From Elusimicrobiales bacterium (GTDB lineage: Bacteria; Elusimicrobiota; Elusimicrobia; Elusimicrobiales; UBA9959): a stretch of DNA of 64,000 nt. The DNA is taken from assembly GCA_028713125.1 (NCBI GenBank), contig JAQTOU010000005.1, forward strand, positions 1 to 64,000, given 5' to 3'. The position numbers and the translations under genes are program-made. Position 1 is the first letter of the stretch; every line of letters begins with the position of its first letter. Below the pieces are notes generated by a model, which saw nothing but the letters and a program-made list of their open reading frames with translations, made no database searches and was not told the DNA's origin. Positions 14,424-62,852 of the stretch are shown in pieces.

Positions 14424-15317
14424 TCAATCTTTGAATGGGAGGGGCTTCAGCTCCGCCGCCCCGTAAAACCGCAAATACGGCTTCATCAGCCCCACGCAGA
14501 CTTCCCTGTCGCGGCAGCCGGAACAGGCCGGCGGGTAGGCCCGGTCTTCGGGAGGAAGGCTGACTATGGCCAGGCGGCGCAGCGCCGGCAAAAGCAGGCA
14601 GCGCGGAAAATGGTAAAGGCGAGCCTCCCCGAAGCCTGCCAGGGAGCTTTTGCAGGCATTGACCTGCTTCGCGGTGGCGGAAAGCCGCACTTCCAGCTTC
14701 TTGCCGTTCCTGGCCCCGCAACCCTCCGCCTCATAGTGCATTACCACCACGCGGTACCGCCGGCCCCTCATCATCCTCTTTATAAAATTCAGGGTGGCGC
14801 CGAGGCGCCGGTAATTAAGCTTGTGCAGTATGACCCTTATTTCAAGCAAAGGCGCGGCCTGCAGGGCTAGAAGGTTTTTAAGGCCGAGCAAAGTTTCTTT
14901 AAAAGCGCCTTTTACCCCGGCCACCGCGTCATGCGCCGCGGCCGCAGGACCGTGGATGGATACGGCAAGCGTGAAAGGCGGCCTGGCCGCGGCGGCAAAG
15001 TCAGCGGCAAAAACCGGGTCGGAGAAGCGCCGGCCGTTTGAAAGCAAAGTAAGCTCCTCGCCTTCCAGCCGCCGCCTGAAATATTTTATCGCTTTAAGGA
15101 AATCCGGGTTCAGCGTGGGCTCGCCGCCGGTAAGGTTCCAGGCGCCGGCCGTGCCGGCGTTCTTCCTGTAAGCCGCGGCCCCGCGGAGATATTTCTCCAG
15201 CCTGTAGGCCTGCCTGAGCAGGCCGTAATCGCCGGGCGTATTCAGGCTGAAGCCGGACGTGTTGGCGCACATCACGCACTTATTATTGCATTTGTTCCAG
15301 ACGGGGATATCGGGCAT
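14424..15317 (-). CDS. Radical SAM protein
   Basis: 297 residues. The radical SAM cluster motif is very near the N-terminus (C10-x3-C14-x2-C17, CNNKCVMC), followed by the SAM-binding LTGGEPTLNP segment. The C-terminus has CSGCRDREVC and one further Cys (FPRCLL), a short SPASM/Twitch-like auxiliary cluster site. A peptide or small-molecule substrate cannot be told apart. It lies 3 nt after the membrane protein gene 15321-16886, so it is the second gene of a two-gene unit. A T-run follows its stop, with a weak TTCAA/TTGAA stem. Confidence 0.85.
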   Translation of the reverse strand: MPDIPVWNKCNNKCVMCANTSGFSLNTPGDYGLLRQAYRLEKYLRGAAAYRKNAGTAGAWNLTGGEPTLNPDFLKAIKYFRRRLEGEELTLLSNGRRFSDPVFAADFAAAARPPFTLAVSIHGPAAAAHDAVAGVKGAFKETLLGLKNLLALQAAPLLEIRVILHKLNYRRLGATLNFIKRMMRGRRYRVVVMHYEAEGCGARNGKKLEVRLSATAKQVNACKSSLAGFGEARLYHFPRCLLLPALRRLAIVSLPPEDRAYPPACSGCRDREVCVGLMKPYLRFYGAAELKPLPFKD

Positions 15318-53667: not shown

Positions 53668-54473
53668 CTGAAAGCAAAAGCCCGGCCCCCGCAGGCGTAA
53701 TTAACGCCGCGACGGTGGACGCCGAGGAATGGAACGACACCGTGCTTTTCCGCGGCGCCCCCGGCGGCGGGGATTTCCGCGGTAACGCGTCGGCCATACT
53801 CGAGCTGCTGGGCGCGCGCGGCGTTAAAGCCACCTTCTTCGTCCTCGGCTCGCTCGCTCTTAAATATCCGGAAGAGATCAGGGAAATCGCCTCGGCGGGC
53901 CACGAAATAGCCAGCCACGGGCATACGCACAGGTCGCTGTGGCGCCTGACGCGGGAAGAGTTCGCGCGGGACCTGAAAATGTCCCGCGAGGCCATAGAGA
54001 AAGCCTGCGGCGCGGCCCCGGCCGGCTACCGCTCCCCCACCTGGTCGCTCCGCGGCAGGGAAAAAGAATTCCTGCCGCTTATAAAGGATGCCGGCTTCAG
54101 CTACGATTCCAGCCTTTACCCGGCCGGTTTCAGCGCTTCCGCCCGCGGGCCTTATGAAGTTCTTCCCGGCCTGGCCGAGTTCCCCCCCTCCGTGTTCAAA
54201 GTCGCGGGCTTCGGCCTCCCCTTCCTGGGCGGGACTTTCCTGCGCTGGGCCGGCACGGGTTTCATAAAACGCCAGGTAGCCGCGCTTAATGCCGCGGGCC
54301 TGCCGGCCATGCTCTATTTCCACACCTGGGAGTTCGACCGGGAGCCGCCGCTGCCGGTCCCTTTTTACAAAAGGGCCGTGCAATACTACAATATAGCCAG
54401 CGTGCCGCTTAAAGTAGGGGAGCTGCTGGACAGTTTCAGCTGGGCGCCGGCGCGGGATATCCTTAAACAATGA
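53664..54473 (+). CDS. NodB-type polysaccharide deacetylase
   Basis: 269 residues from a GTG at 53664 overlapping the preceding stop. Metal and catalytic residues: D19 (TVDAEEW), H85 and H89 (ASHGHTHRS), GYRSPTWSL and the C-terminal FHTWEFD. The arrangement is that of the exosortase/EPS-cluster deacetylase type. It removes N- or O-acetyl groups from a sugar or related amide. No signal peptide is seen, so it may act inside the cell on a lipid-linked precursor. Confidence 0.85.
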   Translation: MTESKSPAPAGVINAATVDAEEWNDTVLFRGAPGGGDFRGNASAILELLGARGVKATFFVLGSLALKYPEEIREIASAGHEIASHGHTHRSLWRLTREEFARDLKMSREAIEKACGAAPAGYRSPTWSLRGREKEFLPLIKDAGFSYDSSLYPAGFSASARGPYEVLPGLAEFPPSVFKVAGFGLPFLGGTFLRWAGTGFIKRQVAALNAAGLPAMLYFHTWEFDREPPLPVPFYKRAVQYYNIASVPLKVGELLDSFSWAPARDILKQ

Positions 54474-55621
54474 AGAAACGGGACTGCTGCGAGATAATAC
54501 TTAACCATGCCTGCGACCTGGGCTGCGCTTTCTGCTCGCAGGCGGACTTCAGCCCGGCCTCGCTGATGAAACCGGGCGACGCGGTGCGGCATATCTACGC
54601 GGCGAAAAAAGACGGCTTCACCCGCCTCGGTTTCTCCGGCGGCGAGGCCCTGCTCCGCCGGGACCTGCCCCAGCTTATAAAAGCGGCGCGGAAAGTGGGC
54701 TTCAAAGCGGTGCGCCTGCAGACCAACGGCCTGCGCCTTTCTTCTTTCGCCGCCGCGGAAAAACTTGTGCGCGCGGGTCTTACCGTCTGCAAATTCACCT
54801 TCGCCGGCCATCTGCCCGAAGTACACGACCGCCTGGTCGGGAAGCCGGGCGCTTTCAAAAAAAGCATGACCGGGCTCTCTAACATGGTGAAGCTCAATGC
54901 AGCCGTCGGCGTTAACCTGCTGGTCACCAAAGCCAATTACAGGTCCCTCCCGGAAACGCTTAATTTTTTCATACAGAAAGGCGTCTCTAATTTTGTGCTT
55001 ATCTATCCGATCTATACCGGCGCCATGGCCCGCTCGGCGGCGCTGCGGATAAGCCTCCCGGAGGCGGCGCCTTTCATCGCGAAAGCTCTGCGCCTCGCCG
55101 CCGATTCCGGCCTTGGCCGCGAGGTTAAGGCGCTGAACGTCCCGCCCTGCCTGCTCCCGGGCTTCGAGAGCATGGCCTCCGGCCTGTACCGCTTCAATAC
55201 CGTGGTAGTGGCGGCTGACGGGGAGGCGCGCGATCTCGATTCCTCGGTCGCCGCGGCCAGGCGGCAGGGGCCGCCCTGCGCGCTCTGCTTCTTTAAGAAA
55301 ACCTGCCGGGGCATCGATCATAATTACCTCGATATTTTCGGCTGGAAGGGGATCTCGCCGGTCAAAGGAAAGCCCGCCCCCGCGCGCCTGAAGGCCGGGC
55401 CGCACTTTACGAACAATGAGAAATGTTTCCTGGAGCTCCTGCGCGGGGGTAAAGCGCGCGGCACGGCCGAGCTGCTCCGGGCGGCCAAAAGCGTGCCGCT
55501 CTGCTACGATTGCTCCGACGGTTCCAATGTTATGACCACCGGGACCGCCCTGGTAAAAAAAGGGTTGGTGAGCCGCGTTTTGCGCGGCGGAATTTATCTC
55601 TGGAGCCTGAAGCATGCTTGA
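54470..55621 (+). CDS. Radical SAM protein with C-terminal winged-helix-like domain
   Basis: 383 residues. The rSAM motif is very early (C15-x3-C19-x2-C22, CDLGCAFC), followed by FSGGEALLRRDL. Auxiliary Cys lie at CALCFFKKTC (about 270). The last 75 residues (FTNNEKCFLELLRGG to LWSLKHA) look like a winged helix with an additional C-x2-C, perhaps a substrate-binding module. ATGA overlap upstream and 8-nt overlap downstream. Confidence 0.82.
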   Translation: MKKRDCCEIILNHACDLGCAFCSQADFSPASLMKPGDAVRHIYAAKKDGFTRLGFSGGEALLRRDLPQLIKAARKVGFKAVRLQTNGLRLSSFAAAEKLVRAGLTVCKFTFAGHLPEVHDRLVGKPGAFKKSMTGLSNMVKLNAAVGVNLLVTKANYRSLPETLNFFIQKGVSNFVLIYPIYTGAMARSAALRISLPEAAPFIAKALRLAADSGLGREVKALNVPPCLLPGFESMASGLYRFNTVVVAADGEARDLDSSVAAARRQGPPCALCFFKKTCRGIDHNYLDIFGWKGISPVKGKPAPARLKAGPHFTNNEKCFLELLRGGKARGTAELLRAAKSVPLCYDCSDGSNVMTTGTALVKKGLVSRVLRGGIYLWSLKHA

Positions 55622-56915
55622 AGAACTCCTCCTCGCCGCCGGCGAGAACGGGCTTGAACTGGACGTGGACCGGCGGGCCCGCGAATTCACGGTTTCATTT
55701 AAAACCGGGGCCTCCCCGGAGAAAGCGCGCGCCATAATCTATCCCATCCTTGCGGCGCTGGAGGATAATTTCCTGGTAAAGGTTAGCGGTGCCCCGGCCT
55801 GCCTTATGCCCGACGCTTTCGAACATTTCGCCTGGCCGCTCGGAGAGAAAGGTCCTTTCAAGCGCGTCGAAGCCTGCGGAACCTGCGCTCTCAGCGGGCG
55901 CTGCCCGGGAGTAAACAAAGCCTGGACCGGGGCGGCAGGGCTTTTAAACCCTGTGCTTCCGGCCCCGGCCGAGATCGTCATAGAACTTAACAAGAACTGC
56001 AATTTAGCCTGCCGGGCCTGCTTCGGCCGCACCGGCGAAGAACTCCCGCTTAAAACGGCCGAAAAAGCATTGCGCGAAGCCGCCGCGCTCGGCATCAAAA
56101 GCGCGCGCTTTACCGGCGGGGAACCGCTGCTGCACCCGGGCCTTGAAAAACTCCTGCGCCTTGCGAGAAAGCTGGGCTTTTACACTCTTCTTAACACCAA
56201 TGCGGTACTGTTCACCACGGCTATAGCCCGCCGGCTTAAAGGGCTGATCGACAATGCGCTGGTTTCCCTGCCCGGTATTGACGAGGCCGGTCACGCGGCC
56301 GGCTCGGGGACGGCCGGGCAGTTCGGGCGAAAAAAAACGGCGCTAAAGCTGCTGCGCGCTTCCGGCGTAAAAGTTTTAAGGGCCGGGACCGTCGTCTCAA
56401 AGCCGCTGGCAAAAGATTTTGAGCGCTGGCATAAAGCGGTAGCCCGGCTTGGTTTCGACATCTGGGAGCTTTACAGGCCGATGATGACCCCCGCGGCCCT
56501 CGCCGCGGCCCCGGAATTCAAGATCTCGCGGAAAGATTTTATCAAGCTCGCGAATAAAATTTCAGCCCGGAAAACGGCAGGACTCAGGACCGTGCTGGCG
56601 AACCCGGTTCCGTACTGCGCCCTGCCCGCGGCCGCCAGGCCCTTCGCGCTGGGCGCCCGTTTCGACGACGGCTGGACCCGGCTGGTGCTGGACGCCTCCG
56701 GAGTTTACAAGCCCAGCTATCCCTCGACTGAATTCCTCGGCAGGACGCTGGCCGGAGCCTGGGCGCATCCTTTCCTGAAAAAGACCCGCGCTGCGGCCTG
56801 GCTCCCGGTAACGTGCCGCCGCTGCGCCATGCTTTCCGCCTGCCTCGGCGGCAGCCGCTTCCAGGCCGAGGCCGCCGGAGATATTTTCGGCGCGGACCCG
56901 TGGATGCGAAAATGA
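55614..56915 (+). CDS. Radical SAM protein with extra N-terminal Cys domain
   Basis: 433 residues. The first 115 residues form an added domain ending in C88-x2-C91-x5-C97 (CGTCALSGRCPG), resembling the C-terminal tail of another rSAM protein. The rSAM motif follows at C129-x3-C133-x2-C136 (CNLACRAC), with FTGGEPLLHP. The C-terminus has YCALP and CRRCAMLSAC. The N-terminal addition could be a fused partner or a substrate-recognition unit. Overlaps both neighbours. Confidence 0.82.
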   Translation: MLEELLLAAGENGLELDVDRRAREFTVSFKTGASPEKARAIIYPILAALEDNFLVKVSGAPACLMPDAFEHFAWPLGEKGPFKRVEACGTCALSGRCPGVNKAWTGAAGLLNPVLPAPAEIVIELNKNCNLACRACFGRTGEELPLKTAEKALREAAALGIKSARFTGGEPLLHPGLEKLLRLARKLGFYTLLNTNAVLFTTAIARRLKGLIDNALVSLPGIDEAGHAAGSGTAGQFGRKKTALKLLRASGVKVLRAGTVVSKPLAKDFERWHKAVARLGFDIWELYRPMMTPAALAAAPEFKISRKDFIKLANKISARKTAGLRTVLANPVPYCALPAAARPFALGARFDDGWTRLVLDASGVYKPSYPSTEFLGRTLAGAWAHPFLKKTRAAAWLPVTCRRCAMLSACLGGSRFQAEAAGDIFGADPWMRK

Positions 56916-57697
56916 AAACATTTTTCCTGCGCTGCGACGATGTTACGAAGCCCGACAGGGCTTTCCTGCGCGTCTTCGGGCTGCTCAGCGCCGCCGGGCT
57001 GCCGGTTTCCTGCGCGGTCATCCCGGCGCAGGCCGGGCGGGCCCTGGCCGCCTTCTTCCGCGCGCAAACCGCCGCCGGGGCGCGGCTCGAAGCCCTGCAG
57101 CACGGGTTCAGCCACGCCGAGCATGCCGGCAACAAATACCTCAAGCATGAGTTCGGCCCCGCGCGCCTTTACAAGGAGCAGCGCGGCGATATAGCCGCGG
57201 GCAAGCGGCTGATGAAAAAGCTGTTCGGAAAAATTTCAAAACCGGTTTTCGTGCCGCCTTTCCATACTTACAACTCCGACACGCTCAAAGCGCTGGCTTC
57301 GCTCAGGTTCAAGGCGGTCTCCGCCAGCAGGCGGCTTAATGAACCGCTGCCCCGCGGCCTGGCTTTCCTGGGCACGCGGGTGACGGTAAATGAATATGAT
57401 CTTAAGCTTAAGCCCCGGCCTTTGTCTTTGGGCCAGCTGAAATCGCGGACGCTGGCGGCCATAAGGGAAGGCGGCGGGCCGGCCGGCATCTATTTCCACC
57501 ACGACGATATTAAAGGGAAGAACTTTGAAATTTTCTCGGAGTATATCTCTTTCCTGAAAAACCTCGAGAACCGCGGGCTGGCCCGCTTTATCCTGGCTTC
57601 CGAAACAATTAACCTGAAAGTTGCAGCCGCAACTTTCCGACCGCATAGCGGTCGCCCTGGCGGGAGGCATACACCTCGTCGGGCCGGGCGCGCATAG
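56912..57697 (+). CDS. Polysaccharide deacetylase-like protein (DUF2334 type)
   Basis: 261 residues from the ATG at 56912 (MKTFFLRCDDVTKP), overlapping the previous stop. RCDDV, LQHGFSHAEH, VFVPPFHTYN and YFHHDDI follow the NodB-like fold with D, H and H metal ligands. A second deacetylase in the same operon. The last 29 or so residues (AATFRPHSGRPGG onward) are encoded by the hairpin element that begins at 57609 and probably do not belong to the fold. Confidence 0.75.
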   Translation: MKTFFLRCDDVTKPDRAFLRVFGLLSAAGLPVSCAVIPAQAGRALAAFFRAQTAAGARLEALQHGFSHAEHAGNKYLKHEFGPARLYKEQRGDIAAGKRLMKKLFGKISKPVFVPPFHTYNSDTLKALASLRFKAVSASRRLNEPLPRGLAFLGTRVTVNEYDLKLKPRPLSLGQLKSRTLAAIREGGGPAGIYFHHDDIKGKNFEIFSEYISFLKNLENRGLARFILASETINLKVAAATFRPHSGRPGGRHTPRRAGRA

Positions 57698-57747
57698 CGC
57701 TGGGCCCTCCGCCCGCTTCGCGGGGAATCCTGCAGGATTCAGGTTAA
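57609..57747. repeat. Hairpin-array element E between convergent genes
   Basis: Bounded by a perfect 10-bp inverted pair, TTAACCTGAA (57609-57618) and TTCAGGTTAA (57738-57747). Inside are at least four perfect hairpins in series: GAAAGTTGC-AGCC-GCAACTTTC, GACCGC-ATA-GCGGTC, CCCGC-TTC-GCGGG and AATCCT-GC-AGGATT. It does not share the core of copies A-D. It supplies the 3' end of the deacetylase-like gene and the stop of the convergent rSAM gene. Confidence 0.7.
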
Positions 57748-58709
57748 AAGATCCTCTTGATCCCGAAGCGCTGGCAGCAGCGGGCGCAGGCCTGCGGCAG
57801 GCCGCCTTTGACGAGCCGGCGCTTGACCTTACGTATGGCCGCCAGGTCCAGGCTTTTTGCCCGCCCCGCGGGCGCGCTGTACAGCACGCAGGTCCTTATC
57901 CGCCCGTCGGGCTCCACATTCAGGGTGGACAACAGGCCGGGGCAGCTCCCGGAAGGCTTCATCGCCCCGTTATAATAGCGCTCCAGCTGCGCGGCGGTAA
58001 AATCCGGGCGCAGCTCGAAATGCGTTTTAAAAGCCCCGCGGAGCGCTTTTATTTTTTTAAGCGAAGCCGAAAGAGAGCGCGTATCAAGGCGCAGGCCGTC
58101 GAGCTCCGGCGTGATCACTTCCACCGGCGAAAGCCCGGCGCGGGCGGCCTCTCCCTTCCTGATGAACTGAAGATGTTCGAACACCGCCCGGTCGGCCCCG
58201 GCGCGGGCCGCGTCGAGGTAAACGGCCGGCAGGAGGGCGGCATTGGCGGGATTTATCACGCAGTTGGTGATCACTTCGGTCCCGTCTTTTTTGAAGTCCG
58301 CGGCCGCCCTGATATTTTCAAGTATTTTTTTATGCGCGCCCTTTACCCCGGTCAGGCGGTCGTGCGCGGCGGCCGGGCCGTGCAGCGAAAAAATAATATA
58401 AGCCGGCTTAAGGCCCATCAGCTTTTTTATCCCGGGGATATCCAGGGCCAAACCATTGGTATTGACGCCCCAGGTGAAGCCTCTTTCAGCGGCGAAGGAA
58501 AGTATCCCGAAAATATCCTTTCTCAGGAAAGGCTCGCCTCCGCTGAAATAGAACTTCGTGCCGGCGGGAAAGCGGCGCATGAAGGCTTTGAGCTCAGCCT
58601 CTTTCATCTCCGGCCGCCGGCTGTTAAGGCGCCCCGTCTCCCCCAAATAGCAGAAAGCGCAGGCCGCGCCGCAGCGCCAGGTAAGTTCCATCATCACGGT
58701 TTCTTTCAT
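57744..58709 (-). CDS. Radical SAM/SPASM protein
   Basis: 321 residues from the ATG at 58709, which overlaps the glycosyltransferase stop (ATGA). rSAM motif C16-x3-C20-x2-C23 at the very N-terminus (CGAACAFC), FSGGEPFLRKDI, then SLHGPAAAHD. The C-terminus has SCPGLLST, RTCVLY and ACARCC, a SPASM-type site. Last gene of the minus-strand set that starts with HxsB. It could be a second maturase of that peptide system. It lacks features that would let me call it HxsC. Confidence 0.83.
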   Translation of the reverse strand: MKETVMMELTWRCGAACAFCYLGETGRLNSRRPEMKEAELKAFMRRFPAGTKFYFSGGEPFLRKDIFGILSFAAERGFTWGVNTNGLALDIPGIKKLMGLKPAYIIFSLHGPAAAHDRLTGVKGAHKKILENIRAAADFKKDGTEVITNCVINPANAALLPAVYLDAARAGADRAVFEHLQFIRKGEAARAGLSPVEVITPELDGLRLDTRSLSASLKKIKALRGAFKTHFELRPDFTAAQLERYYNGAMKPSGSCPGLLSTLNVEPDGRIRTCVLYSAPAGRAKSLDLAAIRKVKRRLVKGGLPQACARCCQRFGIKRIF

Positions 58710-59854
58710 AGGCCGCATATAATTTTAGCCGACTTTCGCGCGCCGAGGAACCAGGAAGGTTTCACGCTTTTCGAGAGCCTGAACGGCTTCGCCAGCCGGG
58801 CTCTTACCGCGGCGGCTATCTTCTCGGGAGCAAGGTCCGCCGGCAAAAGCAGGGCCGCGCCAGCCAGGTCCCTCATCAGCCACGCGCGGGCCAGCTGGTC
58901 GGAATGCTCGCGCATTTTCGAGCCGCAATAAGGAGCAAGCACCATTTTTTTCCGCAAGGCCAGCATTTCGTAAACGGAACCGCCGGCGGTGGAAAGACAA
59001 ACGGCGGCCCCGGCCATCAGGTCCTGCAGGCCGTCCGGGCTTCCTATGATCTCGGCCTTTCCGCCGCCTGAAGCCGCAAGGCGCCTGAAATGCGCCAGGC
59101 GCCGCGGCGGCGTAGCCGGCCCCGCTACAAGCCTGAAAGGAATATCGGAAATAGAAGCCGCCCCGATAGCGGCTTCAAAAAAGCTGTCGGAGGTGGAGCC
59201 GCCGCCGCGGGTAACCAGCACGAAATTATTTTTTTCAGCCCGCCTGGCGGCCGGCTTCGCGGGAAGAACATAGCCGGTAAAAACAATTTTGCCGCGCAGC
59301 CCGCGGAACAGGGAAAGGAAGGCGGCCGCGCTTATGCGCCGCTCCAGGCCTATGGCTTTCGCCATGTACGGCAGGTCCGCGCCTTCGGGGCTGTGGACGA
59401 GGAGCTTATCGTAACCGGCGCAGAGAGCCGCCAGCTCTTTAAGGCCGCGCTCCGGCGCGGTAAAATAGGGCATTGGAACGCTGGCTAACTTCTTCGCGCC
59501 GCAGGCCGAGGCCGCCTCGAGAAGAGGTTTTATTTCAGGGAGGCACTCGGCGCGGCCGAAAGGGAAGAATTCCGTGACCAAAGCGGCAGGCCGGAACTTC
59601 AGCAGCGCCAGGGCGAGGCGGCGGCCGGAAGCGGCGGAAGGCGCGGCAGGCAGCGGGATCACCCGCCCGTATTTTTTAAAAAGGCCGTAGGGATAGATGG
59701 AGGGAGCCCGCAGGAAAATTAAACCGCGGCTGCCGCGGGATCTTTTGATCTCCGCCAGCAGCCGCAGCAAATGCACCGCATGACCGATATCCCCCGAGGG
59801 ACTATGAAGGTAAAAAGCAAGTCTTCCCGGCACTACTGGTTCAATACGACCCAT
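58706..59854 (-). CDS. GT-B glycosyltransferase (MurG/GT28-like)
   Basis: 382 residues. HSPSGDIGHAVHLL near the start and TRGGGSTSDSFFEA, IGSPDGLQDLM, CLSTAGGSVYEML and APYCGSKMREHSDQ in the C-terminal half give the UDP-sugar site of the GT28 type. The ATG at 59854 lies inside the last repeat codons of the hxsA gene (14-nt overlap). A GTG seven codons later is an alternative start. The position right behind a Ser-rich precursor peptide suggests peptide glycosylation, though a cell-surface lipid acceptor fits equally. Confidence 0.75.
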   Translation of the reverse strand: MGRIEPVVPGRLAFYLHSPSGDIGHAVHLLRLLAEIKRSRGSRGLIFLRAPSIYPYGLFKKYGRVIPLPAAPSAASGRRLALALLKFRPAALVTEFFPFGRAECLPEIKPLLEAASACGAKKLASVPMPYFTAPERGLKELAALCAGYDKLLVHSPEGADLPYMAKAIGLERRISAAAFLSLFRGLRGKIVFTGYVLPAKPAARRAEKNNFVLVTRGGGSTSDSFFEAAIGAASISDIPFRLVAGPATPPRRLAHFRRLAASGGGKAEIIGSPDGLQDLMAGAAVCLSTAGGSVYEMLALRKKMVLAPYCGSKMREHSDQLARAWLMRDLAGAALLLPADLAPEKIAAAVRARLAKPFRLSKSVKPSWFLGARKSAKIICGL

Positions 59855-60167
59855 GGCTGCCGTGCGAACCGTGCGAACCGTGGCTGCCGTGCGAACCGTG
59901 GCTGCCGTGGCTGCCGTGGCTGCCGTGCGAAGCGTGCGAACCGTGGCTGCCGTGCGAACCGTGGCTGCCGTGGCTCTGGTGACTGACGTGGGCGGTGCTG
60001 GTGAAATAATTGGAGTGGACCTGAGCCGCCGCCTGCTCCACCATCACGGTGCCCAGTATGCCGAGGGCCAGGCCGGTTTTCACGATATCCGAGTCCAGCA
60101 TCTTGCCTTCCTCGCTGCTGAGGAACATGCGGATATTCTTTTTAAGTTTCGAGGGTTTCTTTTTCAT
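59841..60167 (-). CDS. hxsA: His-Xaa-Ser repeat precursor peptide (HxsA type)
   Basis: 108 residues. A basic N-terminus (1-30) and a hydrophobic segment (about 28-48, ending in EQAAAQ) act as leader or signal. From residue 60 there are 16 H-x-S triplets, HVS, HQS, four HGS, HAS and nine HGS, followed by a terminal Tyr108. His-Xaa-Ser repeats next to a radical SAM maturase define the Hxs peptide systems. The DNA of the repeat uses two alternating 9-bp units (CACGGCAGC and CACGGTTCG). A good ribosome site, AAGGTGG, precedes the ATG. The mature product and its modification are unknown. Confidence 0.85.
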   Translation of the reverse strand: MKKKPSKLKKNIRMFLSSEEGKMLDSDIVKTGLALGILGTVMVEQAAAQVHSNYFTSTAHVSHQSHGSHGSHGSHGSHASHGSHGSHGSHGSHGSHGSHGSHGSHGSY

Positions 60168-60183
60168 AAGTTTACCACCTTGC

Positions 60184-61323
60184 CTATTCTCCGCCCTTCT
60201 TGCCCATCAGCTTGCGCACTTTCTCGTTGATCTGTTTGGTCGCGGCCTCTTCCTGCTTGCGGAGCCGCTCTTCTTCCTTCTTTTTAGCCGCCGCGGCTTC
60301 AAGCGAAGCCTTCACTTCTTCCGGTGTGGCCCCGGCGTAGCCGCCGCCGTGCTTGACCAGGTCTTTGTAATAGCCGCAATATTTTTTGGACATGTCCGCG
60401 AGTATGCTCGCGCAGGGCCCGGGGCTCTTCTGCGCCAGGGCGGCGCAATTCGGCTTGTAGGCGTCGGGACATTTGGCCGGGTTGCCGGAAGTGATGCCAA
60501 GCCACAAAGCGTGATTTGCGAGGCAGGCGGCGTCGGAGCCGCAGACTTTCTCGGACATAGCCATCATCTTTTCCGCTATAGGATAAGCCTTCGGCATTTT
60601 CTGCTTTAGATAGGCGTCGCCTTTATCCGGGCCCTGGCCGACCGCCGCGCAGAACTCGGCGGGGTTGGTGAACATCGACTGGGCCTCCGGGTCGAGGTCG
60701 CTCACATAGTCCAGGCAGTTGCGCTGGTCTTTGGCTTTGCCCGCGGCATAGGCCTTGAAAAGGAAAACCACGGTCTTGCTCCGGCACTGGTCCATCGGGC
60801 TCATAGGCAGGCCGTTCTTGGAGCCGGCTTCGATGCTCTCGTACCTGGGGACGCCGAATTTAACGGCGTCCTTTACGGGTTCGCCCGGCAGTTCGCTGCA
60901 GATCGTGGAATCCTGGCGCGAAGCGGCGGTGCAGGCGTAATAATCCCAGATATGATTGTACAAGTCCTGGGTCTTGGGCGGGTCGAAAGCGTTGCGGCGG
61001 CCCGTGAAGTAGCCCCAGGTCTTGCCGTGGTTTTCGATTATGTCCTTGGGCGACCCTCCCTCGCAGGCGCCTTTCAGGTCCAGGGCCGCGGGCGGAAGGG
61101 CGATCATTTCATAGTTCCCGGAGCCCTGGGACGGGGTATAGGTAGGCATGGAACTGATGGGCATATAACTGGTAGAGCCGGGAGGCAGAGCCACCCCCTG
61201 CTGTTCGGCCTGGGGCTGGGTCGCGGGCTGGGGTGTTCCAACCTGGTTTTTTGCCGCAAAATATTTCAGCCCTATCAAGGCCGCCGCTAATAGGACAACA
61301 ACGCCTGTAATTGTTTTTTTCAT
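60184..61323 (-). CDS. Exported Cys-rich protein of the Hxs locus, unknown function
   Basis: 379 residues. An N-terminal helix (about 5-24) acts as signal or anchor, followed by a Pro/Gln/Ser linker (to about 75). A domain with more than a dozen Cys follows (CEGG, YYACTAASR, ICSELP, QCRSK, NCLDY, FCAAVG, VCGSDAAC, KCPDAYKPNC, PCASI, KYCGYY). The C-terminal 60 residues form a charged coiled coil (EEVKASLEAAAAKKKEEE). The even number and spacing of Cys suit disulfides in the periplasm. No family is recognised. It sits between hxsB and hxsA, 16 nt before hxsA, and takes the place where hxsC/hxsD would be expected. Confidence 0.72.
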   Translation of the reverse strand: MKKTITGVVVLLAAALIGLKYFAAKNQVGTPQPATQPQAEQQGVALPPGSTSYMPISSMPTYTPSQGSGNYEMIALPPAALDLKGACEGGSPKDIIENHGKTWGYFTGRRNAFDPPKTQDLYNHIWDYYACTAASRQDSTICSELPGEPVKDAVKFGVPRYESIEAGSKNGLPMSPMDQCRSKTVVFLFKAYAAGKAKDQRNCLDYVSDLDPEAQSMFTNPAEFCAAVGQGPDKGDAYLKQKMPKAYPIAEKMMAMSEKVCGSDAACLANHALWLGITSGNPAKCPDAYKPNCAALAQKSPGPCASILADMSKKYCGYYKDLVKHGGGYAGATPEEVKASLEAAAAKKKEEERLRKQEEAATKQINEKVRKLMGKKGGE

Positions 61324-61445
61324 AATATTTAAACGATATCCCCCGGCCCTCCCTTGACAGCCGGAGGCCTTAGCCTATGTTGTACCACAAAAAACGACAG
61401 TTTTCAAGCCCGGCGGGAATATTCGCCGGACAGGGCGGAACCCGG

Positions 61446-62852
61446 TTAACTGCGCTCTATCCATTTTTCAAATATATTAAATACGGGTTTTTGGGATAAC
61501 TTCTCAAAGATATAGTCGAAGACGCCCATAAGCGCCCCGCAGCGCCCGTTGGAAGGCATCGAGCCCCAGAAGCCGCCCTGCGCGGCCTGGTTATAGGCCG
61601 GACAGGCGCCGCAAAAAGGCTTGTAGGCGCAGCGCGCGCACAAAGGCTGGAGGTCAAGGCTTGAGGAAATGGCGCAGGCTTTGACCGGCTCGGAGCCGAT
61701 GATCCGGGCATAGCCGTCTTTAAGCGCGCTGCCGAGCCGGAAAGAATAATCCCCCCCGCGGGCGAGCATCCTCCCTTCGTCGCAGGTATAGACCCCCCCG
61801 TCGCAGTCGTAGGCCAGCTGGCCCAGGCCGGCGCCGCAGGGGCAGCGCAGGTCCACGTATTTATTATCCTGCGTGCCGACGATCTTTTTAACCGCCAGGA
61901 AAGCGGTCTTTTCTTTTATGTTCACGCCGCGCCGGTTCAGTTCCAGCACCCGGTCGAGGCCCTCCCTGTAGAATTTAAGGAACTCTTCAGGGGTATAGCC
62001 TATCTCGTCCCAGCGCTTCAGGGCGTCGCCGATAGGGGAAAGCGGTTTGAGAAAAACATAAGGCAGCTTGAGGCGGGCGTATTCGTCCACTATTTCCCGG
62101 GCCCTGCCGAGAGAGGCCCGCGTGACCGTCAGCAGAGCGCTCGGCCCGCCCGGAGGCTCCACCCCGCGCCGCTCCTGGAAGTATTTTATCCATTTCACCG
62201 CGGCCGCGTGCGAGTCCCCGCCGGAAAATTTCCTGTTGGCGTTATGCAGGTCCGCCGGCCCGTCCAGGGAAGTGCAGAGGGAAATATCGTTCCCGATAAT
62301 AAAATCGGCCTTCGCCTTGTCCATCAGGCTGAAATTCGAAACCAGCGCCAGGGCCAGGTCCTTCCCCGTCTTCTCCGCCTTTTTCCGCGCGTAAACCGCG
62401 GTTTCCTTCAGCGCCGCCCAGTTCACAAGCGGCTCCCCGCCCTGGAACTCTATCGTCAGGCCTTTCACCGGCGCGCTGAAAGCCAGGTCCACCGCGCGGC
62501 GGGCCGTCGCCGGGCTCATATTTCTGCCCGCGCCCGAACCGGCCTGGCAATAAACGCAGCTATGATTGCATTTCTCGGTCAGGACCATTATATGCAGCCC
62601 CGGGCCCATGCGAAGGTATTCGTTTGAATCCCGCCACTCCGTAAAAATAGAATCGAAATCAAGGCGCGAGCGCAAAAGCCCCGCCCTCTGCAGCCCTTCA
62701 AAACCCGCTCCGCTCTTAAGCTTCCCCTCGGAGAAAAGCCTGAACTCGGCCGGCTTAAGCAGCGCCCAGCCTCCCAGATCGCCGGTAACCAGCACCCCCG
62801 CCTTAAGGCGGCGCCAGTTAAAATAAGCCGGAAGATCGAGCTGTTTTTTCAT
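61446..62852 (-). CDS. hxsB: Radical SAM maturase of the His-Xaa-Ser system (HxsB type)
   Basis: 468 residues. An N-terminal domain (1-85; YFNWRRL, LLVTGDLG-like start) resembles a peptide-recognition part. The rSAM motif is C95-x3-C99-x2-C102 (CNHSCVYCQ), then EFQGGEPLVNW and SLDGPADLHNANR, all matching the HxsB family as I recall it. YTPEEFLKFYREGL and the SPASM site (CPCGAG, TCDEGRM, CARCAYKPFCGAC) complete it. It very likely installs a radical-based modification in the HxsA-type peptide encoded downstream. TATGAT lies upstream, and no ribosome site is visible. Confidence 0.85.
   Translation of the reverse strand: MKKQLDLPAYFNWRRLKAGVLVTGDLGGWALLKPAEFRLFSEGKLKSGAGFEGLQRAGLLRSRLDFDSIFTEWRDSNEYLRMGPGLHIMVLTEKCNHSCVYCQAGSGAGRNMSPATARRAVDLAFSAPVKGLTIEFQGGEPLVNWAALKETAVYARKKAEKTGKDLALALVSNFSLMDKAKADFIIGNDISLCTSLDGPADLHNANRKFSGGDSHAAAVKWIKYFQERRGVEPPGGPSALLTVTRASLGRAREIVDEYARLKLPYVFLKPLSPIGDALKRWDEIGYTPEEFLKFYREGLDRVLELNRRGVNIKEKTAFLAVKKIVGTQDNKYVDLRCPCGAGLGQLAYDCDGGVYTCDEGRMLARGGDYSFRLGSALKDGYARIIGSEPVKACAISSSLDLQPLCARCAYKPFCGACPAYNQAAQGGFWGSMPSNGRCGALMGVFDYIFEKLSQKPVFNIFEKWIERS

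Follow-up and report, generated by a model that had tools for sequence, protein, structure and literature searches.

A split, duplicated His-Xaa-Ser radical-enzyme peptide system in Elusimicrobiota

The His-Xaa-Ser (Hxs) system, as represented in NCBIfam, consists of HxsA, HxsB (TIGR03978), HxsC (TIGR03977) and HxsD (TIGR03976), and is attributed to Haft and Basu in the excerpt of PMC9062424 that cites them. Three-residue crosslinks made by radical S-adenosylmethionine (SAM) enzymes are known: HaaB joins His C2 to Ala C-beta, YhhB links His with Arg, and MscB links Phe with Ser (PMC11002830). The locus described here lies within a stretch of 64,000 nucleotides (‘the window’, positions 1-64000 of contig C7 in the genome, of 3.48 Mb and 39 contigs, of an uncultured Elusimicrobiota bacterium from groundwater), where five adjacent genes encode an HxsA-type precursor, an HxsB-type maturase and three further proteins. 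It is a real His-Xaa-Ser radical-enzyme peptide system of a known kind, but its genes are divided between two islands. In the window lies the ‘A-type’ half of this split and duplicated system, which is well conserved in Elusimicrobiota; both the split itself and a rule that links the tail of the precursor to a neighbouring glycosyltransferase (GT) are new. Hxs systems were named more than ten years ago, and we know of no product described for any of them.

All five genes that a preliminary description of the window placed on one strand, including a precursor with 16 H-x-S triplets, are present as open reading frames (ORFs) on the minus strand: hxsB, a gene for a Cys-rich protein (CysR), hxsA, GT and a radical SAM gene (rSAM). 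Three genes on the plus strand converge on this run, and one further HxsC-family gene of the window stands in isolation:

61446-62852, minus strand: hxsB (A-type), 468 amino acids; radical SAM/SPASM maturase, TIGR03978 at 431.8 bits (cut-off 370)
60184-61323, minus strand: CysR, 379 amino acids; N-terminal membrane helix, Cys-rich all-helical domain and C-terminal long helix
59841-60167, minus strand: hxsA4 precursor, 108 amino acids; SEEG leader motif, hydrophobic segment, 16 HxS triplets and GSHGSY tail
58706-59854, minus strand: GT, 382 amino acids; predicted GT28-like, GT-B-fold glycosyltransferase
57744-58718, minus strand: radical SAM protein (rSAM), 324 amino acids; PF04055 at 59 bits, C-terminal cysteines resembling those of an auxiliary cluster
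56813-57697, plus strand: DUF2334 polysaccharide-deacetylase-like protein, convergent; PF10096 at 46.1 bits, invariant D42/D43/H97/H101 (start uncertain on its upstream side; overlaps the preceding gene)
55614-56915, plus strand: rSAM2, with an extra N-terminal Cys cluster; PF04055 at 56 bits, always found with the HxsC4-like gene in synteny
54470-55621, plus strand: HxsC4-like radical SAM protein; best NCBIfam match NF038332 (HxsC4) at 89.8 bits (cut-off 500), next TIGR03977 (HxsC) at 76.4
14424-15317, minus strand: second, isolated HxsC-family radical SAM gene of the window; best match TIGR03977 (HxsC) at 147.5 bits (cut-off 267.9)

Profile searches bear out the identities proposed for the precursor and its maturase. 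The precursor matches the HxsA4 model (NF038313) at 70.6 bits, above the cut-off of 55, and this model matches at one place only in the whole genome; among HxS-repeat ORFs of C7:1-94999 there is no second hxsA. Its count of exactly 16 HxS triplets compares with about 0.11 expected in 108 residues from local composition, and with a maximum of 10 when its residues were shuffled 10,000 times. Because the triplets use mixed synonymous codons (CAC-GGC-AGC alongside CAC-GGT-TCG) and the dN/dS of hxsA against its nearest relative is 0.07, the repeat is maintained as protein and does not result from recent slippage of the DNA. An alignment of 24 homologues displays a conserved leader (F..SEEGK) followed by a hydrophobic stretch that ends in an AxA motif, which by eye looks like a Sec signal; in the same homologues the spacing of His and Ser is strictly i,i+2 and the middle residue is free.

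For the maturase, the next family after HxsB scores 125.5 bits, which settles in favour of HxsB the question, raised at the outset, of whether another maturase family might fit better. Weaker matches include nif11-type maturases (125 bits), PapB (109 bits) and anaerobic sulfatase maturases (70.3 bits), and its relatives of solved structure include AnSME. The CX3CX2C motif (C95/C99/C102) and the SPASM cysteines are conserved, the dN/dS of A-type hxsB is 0.07, and the A-type proteins (18 rows) form a single clade with a Shimodaira-Hasegawa approximate likelihood ratio of 97, in a tree made by quick search with no bootstrap. The nearest relatives of the window’s HxsB are from SKS1.bin115 (91%), MJ-time bin-2640 (85%) and NC_groundwater_1302 (82%); the named relatives are Elusimicrobiota metagenome-assembled genomes, many of them from groundwater.

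The preliminary description found HxsC and HxsD unrecognisable, which holds for the five-gene run (where the HxsD model finds no match) and fails for the rest of the genome, in which both can be recognised as best matches below cut-off. The only matches to TIGR03976 (cut-off 50) in the genome lie at C7:85111-85353 (30.5 bits) and C7:83221-83343 (18.8 bits), where they flank a second hxsB (C7:83493-84890, 479.9 bits), 21-23 kb from the hxs locus of the window; in relatives across the phylum, scores with the same model reach 72.6 bits. This second island (‘island B’, read from C7:60000-94999) lies on the minus strand and comprises, in order, an exported ‘TTYYPAPYG’ protein (YYPAP), hxsD1, hxsB, hxsD2, a CysR paralogue, two radical SAM genes, a protein whose motifs resemble those of A24 prepilin peptidases, another three radical SAM genes and an aminotransferase of class V. 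Four of its radical SAM proteins were tested, and their best matches are HxsC (150.4 bits) and HxsC4 (144.1, 136.2 and 83.3 bits). The best HxsC scores in the genome (148.8-150.4 bits, against a cut-off of 267.9) thus fall about 20 kb away; the HxsC-family gene nearest to hxsA is the HxsC4-like gene of the window (3 kb away, on the opposite strand), orthologues of which occur in 20 genomes of the family sample (59 genomes). It had also been feared that hxsC and hxsD might lie beside a second hxsA copy with the window’s own neighbours unconserved; hxsD does lie elsewhere, beside a second hxsB, no second hxsA accompanies it, and the neighbours are conserved.

Several features of island B and its surroundings can be recorded in their own right. 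The YYPAP protein (C7:85443-86276) carries the pattern LTTYYPAPYGGY...GIGT..P..KL.V.G and has homologues at nearly all hxsD loci, its gene standing before hxsD nearly everywhere, even where hxsA is absent; it is a possible second substrate or display protein. The membrane protein at C7:79293-80444 (L017:4294-5445), kept among the radical SAM genes of the island, has no match in Pfam, and its invariant D23 and D96 (GDAK) recall A24 prepilin peptidases. In many relatives the hxsD island is adjoined by a barstar-like gene (assigned by eye) and a barnase-like ribonuclease (PF00545, 45 bits), found here at C7:86299-87257 (L017:11300-12258). Between the two islands, 4-8 kb past the end of the window, lies a nitrogenase-like pair (C7:68404-72319; L016:8405-12320): one protein joins a NifH-type portion (PF00142, 221 bits) to an Oxidored_nitro-like one, and the other is an Oxidored_nitro protein (132 bits). 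Elsewhere (L143:9472-18386, G152:C13), an island B operon has beside it a tandem run of six radical SAM genes of the B12-binding type.

Across the phylum sample (341 genomes), HxsB is found in 92 genomes, HxsA4-type precursors in 93 and HxsD-type proteins in 91, and many of the genomes that bear hxsB have at least two copies. Gene-order maps of about 120 loci, which bear out a conserved and distinct gene set, resolve into two recurring forms: a ‘D-type’ (YYPAP-hxsD1-hxsB-hxsD2-CysR, usually with hxsA) and the A-type (hxsB-CysR-hxsA-GT-rSAM facing DUF2334-rSAM2-HxsC4-like), the latter with no HxsD-like gene in any mapped locus. A D-type locus was seen in the same scan for 17 of the 18 named A-type genomes, and the eighteenth has one in L138. 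By our own tally from the printed maps, hxsA is absent from the 17 partner D-type loci, as it is from island B, and is present in 19 of 20 D-type loci of genomes that have no A-type; G140 has one hxsA in each locus type. The dN/dS of D-type hxsB where hxsA is absent (0.04) indicates strong purifying selection. These patterns are most simply explained if the system was duplicated long ago and one precursor or the other was then lost, while the two sets of enzymes were retained. In G124 (L153) all of these genes occur in a single run (YYPAP-hxsB-hxsD-CysR-hxsA(GSY)-GT-rSAM facing DUF2334-rSAM2-HxsC4-like), and only one HxsB was found in that genome.

The gene calls behind these maps are ORF-based and the metagenome-assembled genomes are incomplete. 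Within the window, CysR and hxsA are separated by 16 bp, hxsA overlaps GT by 14 bp and GT overlaps rSAM by 13 bp, a spacing like that of an operon; a promoter and terminator scan gives no clear operon ends. A gene that we read as ornithine-carbamoyltransferase-like adjoins A-type loci. Two further loci may be noted. In G131:C2 (L147:13166-14367) there is a third, canonical-type hxs locus (hxsD-hxsB), which has a GT/rSAM pair of its own and in which hxsA is present twice in tandem. Outside the phylum, an hxsD-hxsB-hxsA locus with a GQW tail in Candidatus Schekmanbacteria GWA2_38_11 (L224) suggests spread of this hxs type between phyla.

The assignment of the GT to a GT28-like family, and its link to the peptide, were both part of the preliminary description and have both gained support. 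The Glyco_tran_28_C domain is matched by 12 of 13 GT homologues at E<=0.01 (best 1e-7); the window protein taken alone falls under the cut-off (17.0 versus 22 bits). Its AlphaFold2 model (mean predicted local distance difference test score, pLDDT, 86.3; predicted template modelling score 0.86) has a GT-B fold, and Foldseek matches it with a probability of 1.00 to UDP-sugar glycosyltransferases and MurG, with UDP-GlcNAc 2-epimerases also matching; against PDB sequences there are only spurious RNase E matches. The modelled fold and the family domain identify a GT28-like GT-B-fold protein with predicted glycosyltransferase activity. It occurs in 19 of the 59 family genomes as 20 copies, of which 18 directly adjoin hxsA, one is 1.6 kb away and one lies beside hxsB; none is found away from hxs loci in those genomes.

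In most of the family, HxsA ends in one of two tails, ...GSHGSY or ...SH(A/S/Q)RGGWC, the former going with the window-type module and the latter with the hxsD island. All 19 hxsA copies near a GT end in Y, none of the 22 RGGWC copies has a GT, and 10 further Y-ending copies lack one (Fisher p 6e-7, with no correction for the tree). Within loci of the hxsD+CysR kind taken alone, both GT-bearing copies end in Y and the other 22 of 22 in RGGWC (p 0.004). One apparent exception (G107, where the GT lies beside hxsB with no hxsA there) has a separate second HxsA match that ends in GSHGSY, and a GSY peptide is present in all 19 GT-bearing genomes. The HxsC4-like gene and rSAM2 accompany GSY peptides even in the absence of GT, rSAM and DUF2334 (G112, G142 and G145); DUF2334 occurs only where GT does; and rSAM accompanies GT except where contigs end early. 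These patterns of co-occurrence divide the module into a modifying part (HxsC4-like and rSAM2) and a decorating part (GT, rSAM and DUF2334). In rSAM, the C-terminal cysteines 259/277/311/314/315, invariant in 13 homologues, look like a twitch or SPASM cluster, although no Pfam SPASM match is obtained. The residues D42, D43, H97 and H101 of DUF2334 are those that an active deacetylase would be expected to keep.

CysR had been described as an exported Cys-rich protein of coiled-coil type; its AlphaFold2 model (pLDDT 82.5) shows an N-terminal helix (2-25), a Cys-rich helical domain and a long helix (334-376). Its cysteines are conserved among homologues; searches of Pfam, NCBIfam and PDB sequences returned nothing useful, and in comparisons with PDB folds Foldseek gave nothing at E<=0.001, the highest Z score (5.4) covering the long helix alone. 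Both CysR genes are the fastest-evolving of the set (dN/dS 0.26-0.27). Homologues occur in 46 of the 341 phylum genomes, and since most of them directly adjoin hxsB, CysR is a partner of D-type as well as A-type loci. The suggestion that new genes stand in the places of HxsC and HxsD must accordingly be withdrawn in its simple form: CysR is an ordinary companion of loci that bear hxsD. It belongs to many Elusimicrobiota Hxs loci and merits a place in the definition of the system.

Membership in the Hxs kind, gene linkage, conservation, the split and the tail rule are shown by the genomes themselves. For what this A-type half of a duplicated system does, the reading that we prefer, and to which we would give an even chance, is that the HxS array is radical-modified with HxsD acting in trans, and the GSY peptide is glycosylated, exported by Sec and received by CysR. 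HxsB, aided by a radical SAM enzyme of the HxsC family and by HxsD supplied in trans, would bind the conserved SEEG leader and modify the array repetitively; the likeliest chemistry would join His to the beta-carbon of Ser at i,i+2, with loss of two hydrogens per triplet; such a crosslink is plausible because His and Ser both have precedent in three-residue crosslinks (PMC11002830). GT would add a sugar to GSY-tailed peptides (candidate sites being the tail tyrosine or nearby serines), DUF2334 may de-N-acetylate that sugar, and membrane-anchored CysR would receive or fold the Sec-exported peptide on the outer side, so that a glycosylated repeat peptide would end up either held at the surface or released. 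A more detailed version, in which two HxsB paralogues from separate islands crosslink every HxS, GT reads the GSY tail as a code (RGGWC marking another fate) and CysR is a dedicated periplasmic anchor, is improbable as a whole.

Several points weigh against the preferred reading. The HxsC and HxsD candidates all score under curated cut-offs, their assignment being by best match and position. Action of HxsD in trans on the window peptide is a proposal drawn from those D-type loci that carry hxsA themselves. Glycosylation of the GSY peptide is proposed from genomic association and fold, and the association is strongly structured by clade, with some 4-5 independent lineages (the A clade, G124, G102, G131:C2 and perhaps G107). 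Because GSY peptides also occur where GT does not (G112, G142, G145 and the canonical-type loci of G148/G152), the tail does not require the enzyme. Finally, the literature found, in the portions available, reports no modification or product of any Hxs peptide.

The A locus might instead work without HxsD, the hxsD island maturing another substrate such as the exported YYPAP surface protein. This is possible but unlikely: the A-type loci, in the window and on the maps, are free of HxsD-like genes, the YYPAP gene precedes hxsD whether or not hxsA is present, and D-type hxsB is held under strong selection where hxsA is lacking; yet the hxsD island carries hxsA directly in most relatives, the single locus of G124 serves a GSY peptide with hxsD and the one HxsB found there, and YYPAP has neither an HxS array nor a SEEG leader. 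As to chemistry, the resemblance of HxsB to sulfatase maturases makes serine oxidation (of the formylglycine or aminomalonate type), or some other change to the HxS side chains, the main rival to a His-Ser crosslink. Its matches to nif11-type maturases and PapB and its relationship to AnSME count the same way, and oxidation and crosslinking would each remove 2 Da per site; the strict spacing and free middle residue in the 24 homologues fit the three-residue crosslink rule (PMC11002830), which leaves this rival rather unlikely.

That GT, DUF2334 and the last rSAM form a surface-glycan cluster lying near hxsA for other reasons is distinctly improbable. Upstream on the plus strand there are indeed genes of glycan type, among them a polysaccharide deacetylase, and the GT fold is common to sugar epimerases; against this stand the confinement of GT to hxs loci, the company that rSAM and DUF2334 keep with it, and the way that tail type tracks GT, the follow-up of G107 included. 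It is very improbable that the peptide stays unmodified and is simply a repeat protein that resembles collagen or binds metals: Pfam Collagen barely exceeds its cut-off (27.7 versus 27.2 bits) and a His at every third residue could bind metals, but the middle position of the triplets may be G, A, Q, S or another residue, with Gly not fixed, the repeat has no Pro, the peptide goes together with HxsB throughout the phylum, and the HxsA4 model fits far better; the collagen-like reading was rejected. A role in anti-phage defence was rejected as well, the only matches being generic viperin-like radical SAM hits.

The tail rule and the split between two islands define small, testable sets of enzyme-peptide pairings and a place in which to seek a sugar, and a GSY tail that goes with an added sugar-transferase module across relatives offers a concrete handle on the fate of Hxs peptides. 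Compared with known systems, the window GT shares with GT28 (MurG-like) enzymes a GT-B fold and the C-terminal domain; it differs from MurG in scoring 18.8 bits with a model that requires 250, and in occurring only at hxs loci within the 59 family genomes. The HxsA4/HxsC4 pair is approached by a precursor above the HxsA4 cut-off and by HxsC4 as best match for the convergent radical SAM protein and three more in island B; at 83-144 bits against a cut-off of 500 (NF038332), these are relatives of HxsC4 and not HxsC4 by the curated rule. With the triceptides (HaaB, YhhB, MscB, XncB and OscB; PMC11002830), the peptide would share the logic of an aromatic residue and an acceptor at i,i+2, His and Ser being known positions; unlike their maturases, HxsB scores low with the corresponding models (FxsB 28.7 of 370, GrrM/OscB 43.8 of 310), and the precursor has 16 tandem motifs, on which the chemistry of HxsB is a proposal. 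Like the Hxs system, finally, the locus has an HxS-repeat precursor with a SEEG leader, an HxsB above cut-off and, within the same genome region, genes that resemble hxsC and hxsD. It is not a canonical hxsABCD cassette, as neither HxsC nor HxsD exceeds its cut-off beside hxsA and hxsB: in place of a single cassette, hxsA and hxsB lie apart from hxsD, a single precursor has alongside it two HxsB, a pair of HxsD-like proteins and several enzymes of the HxsC family, and CysR, GT, extra radical SAM enzymes and DUF2334 are added to the set.

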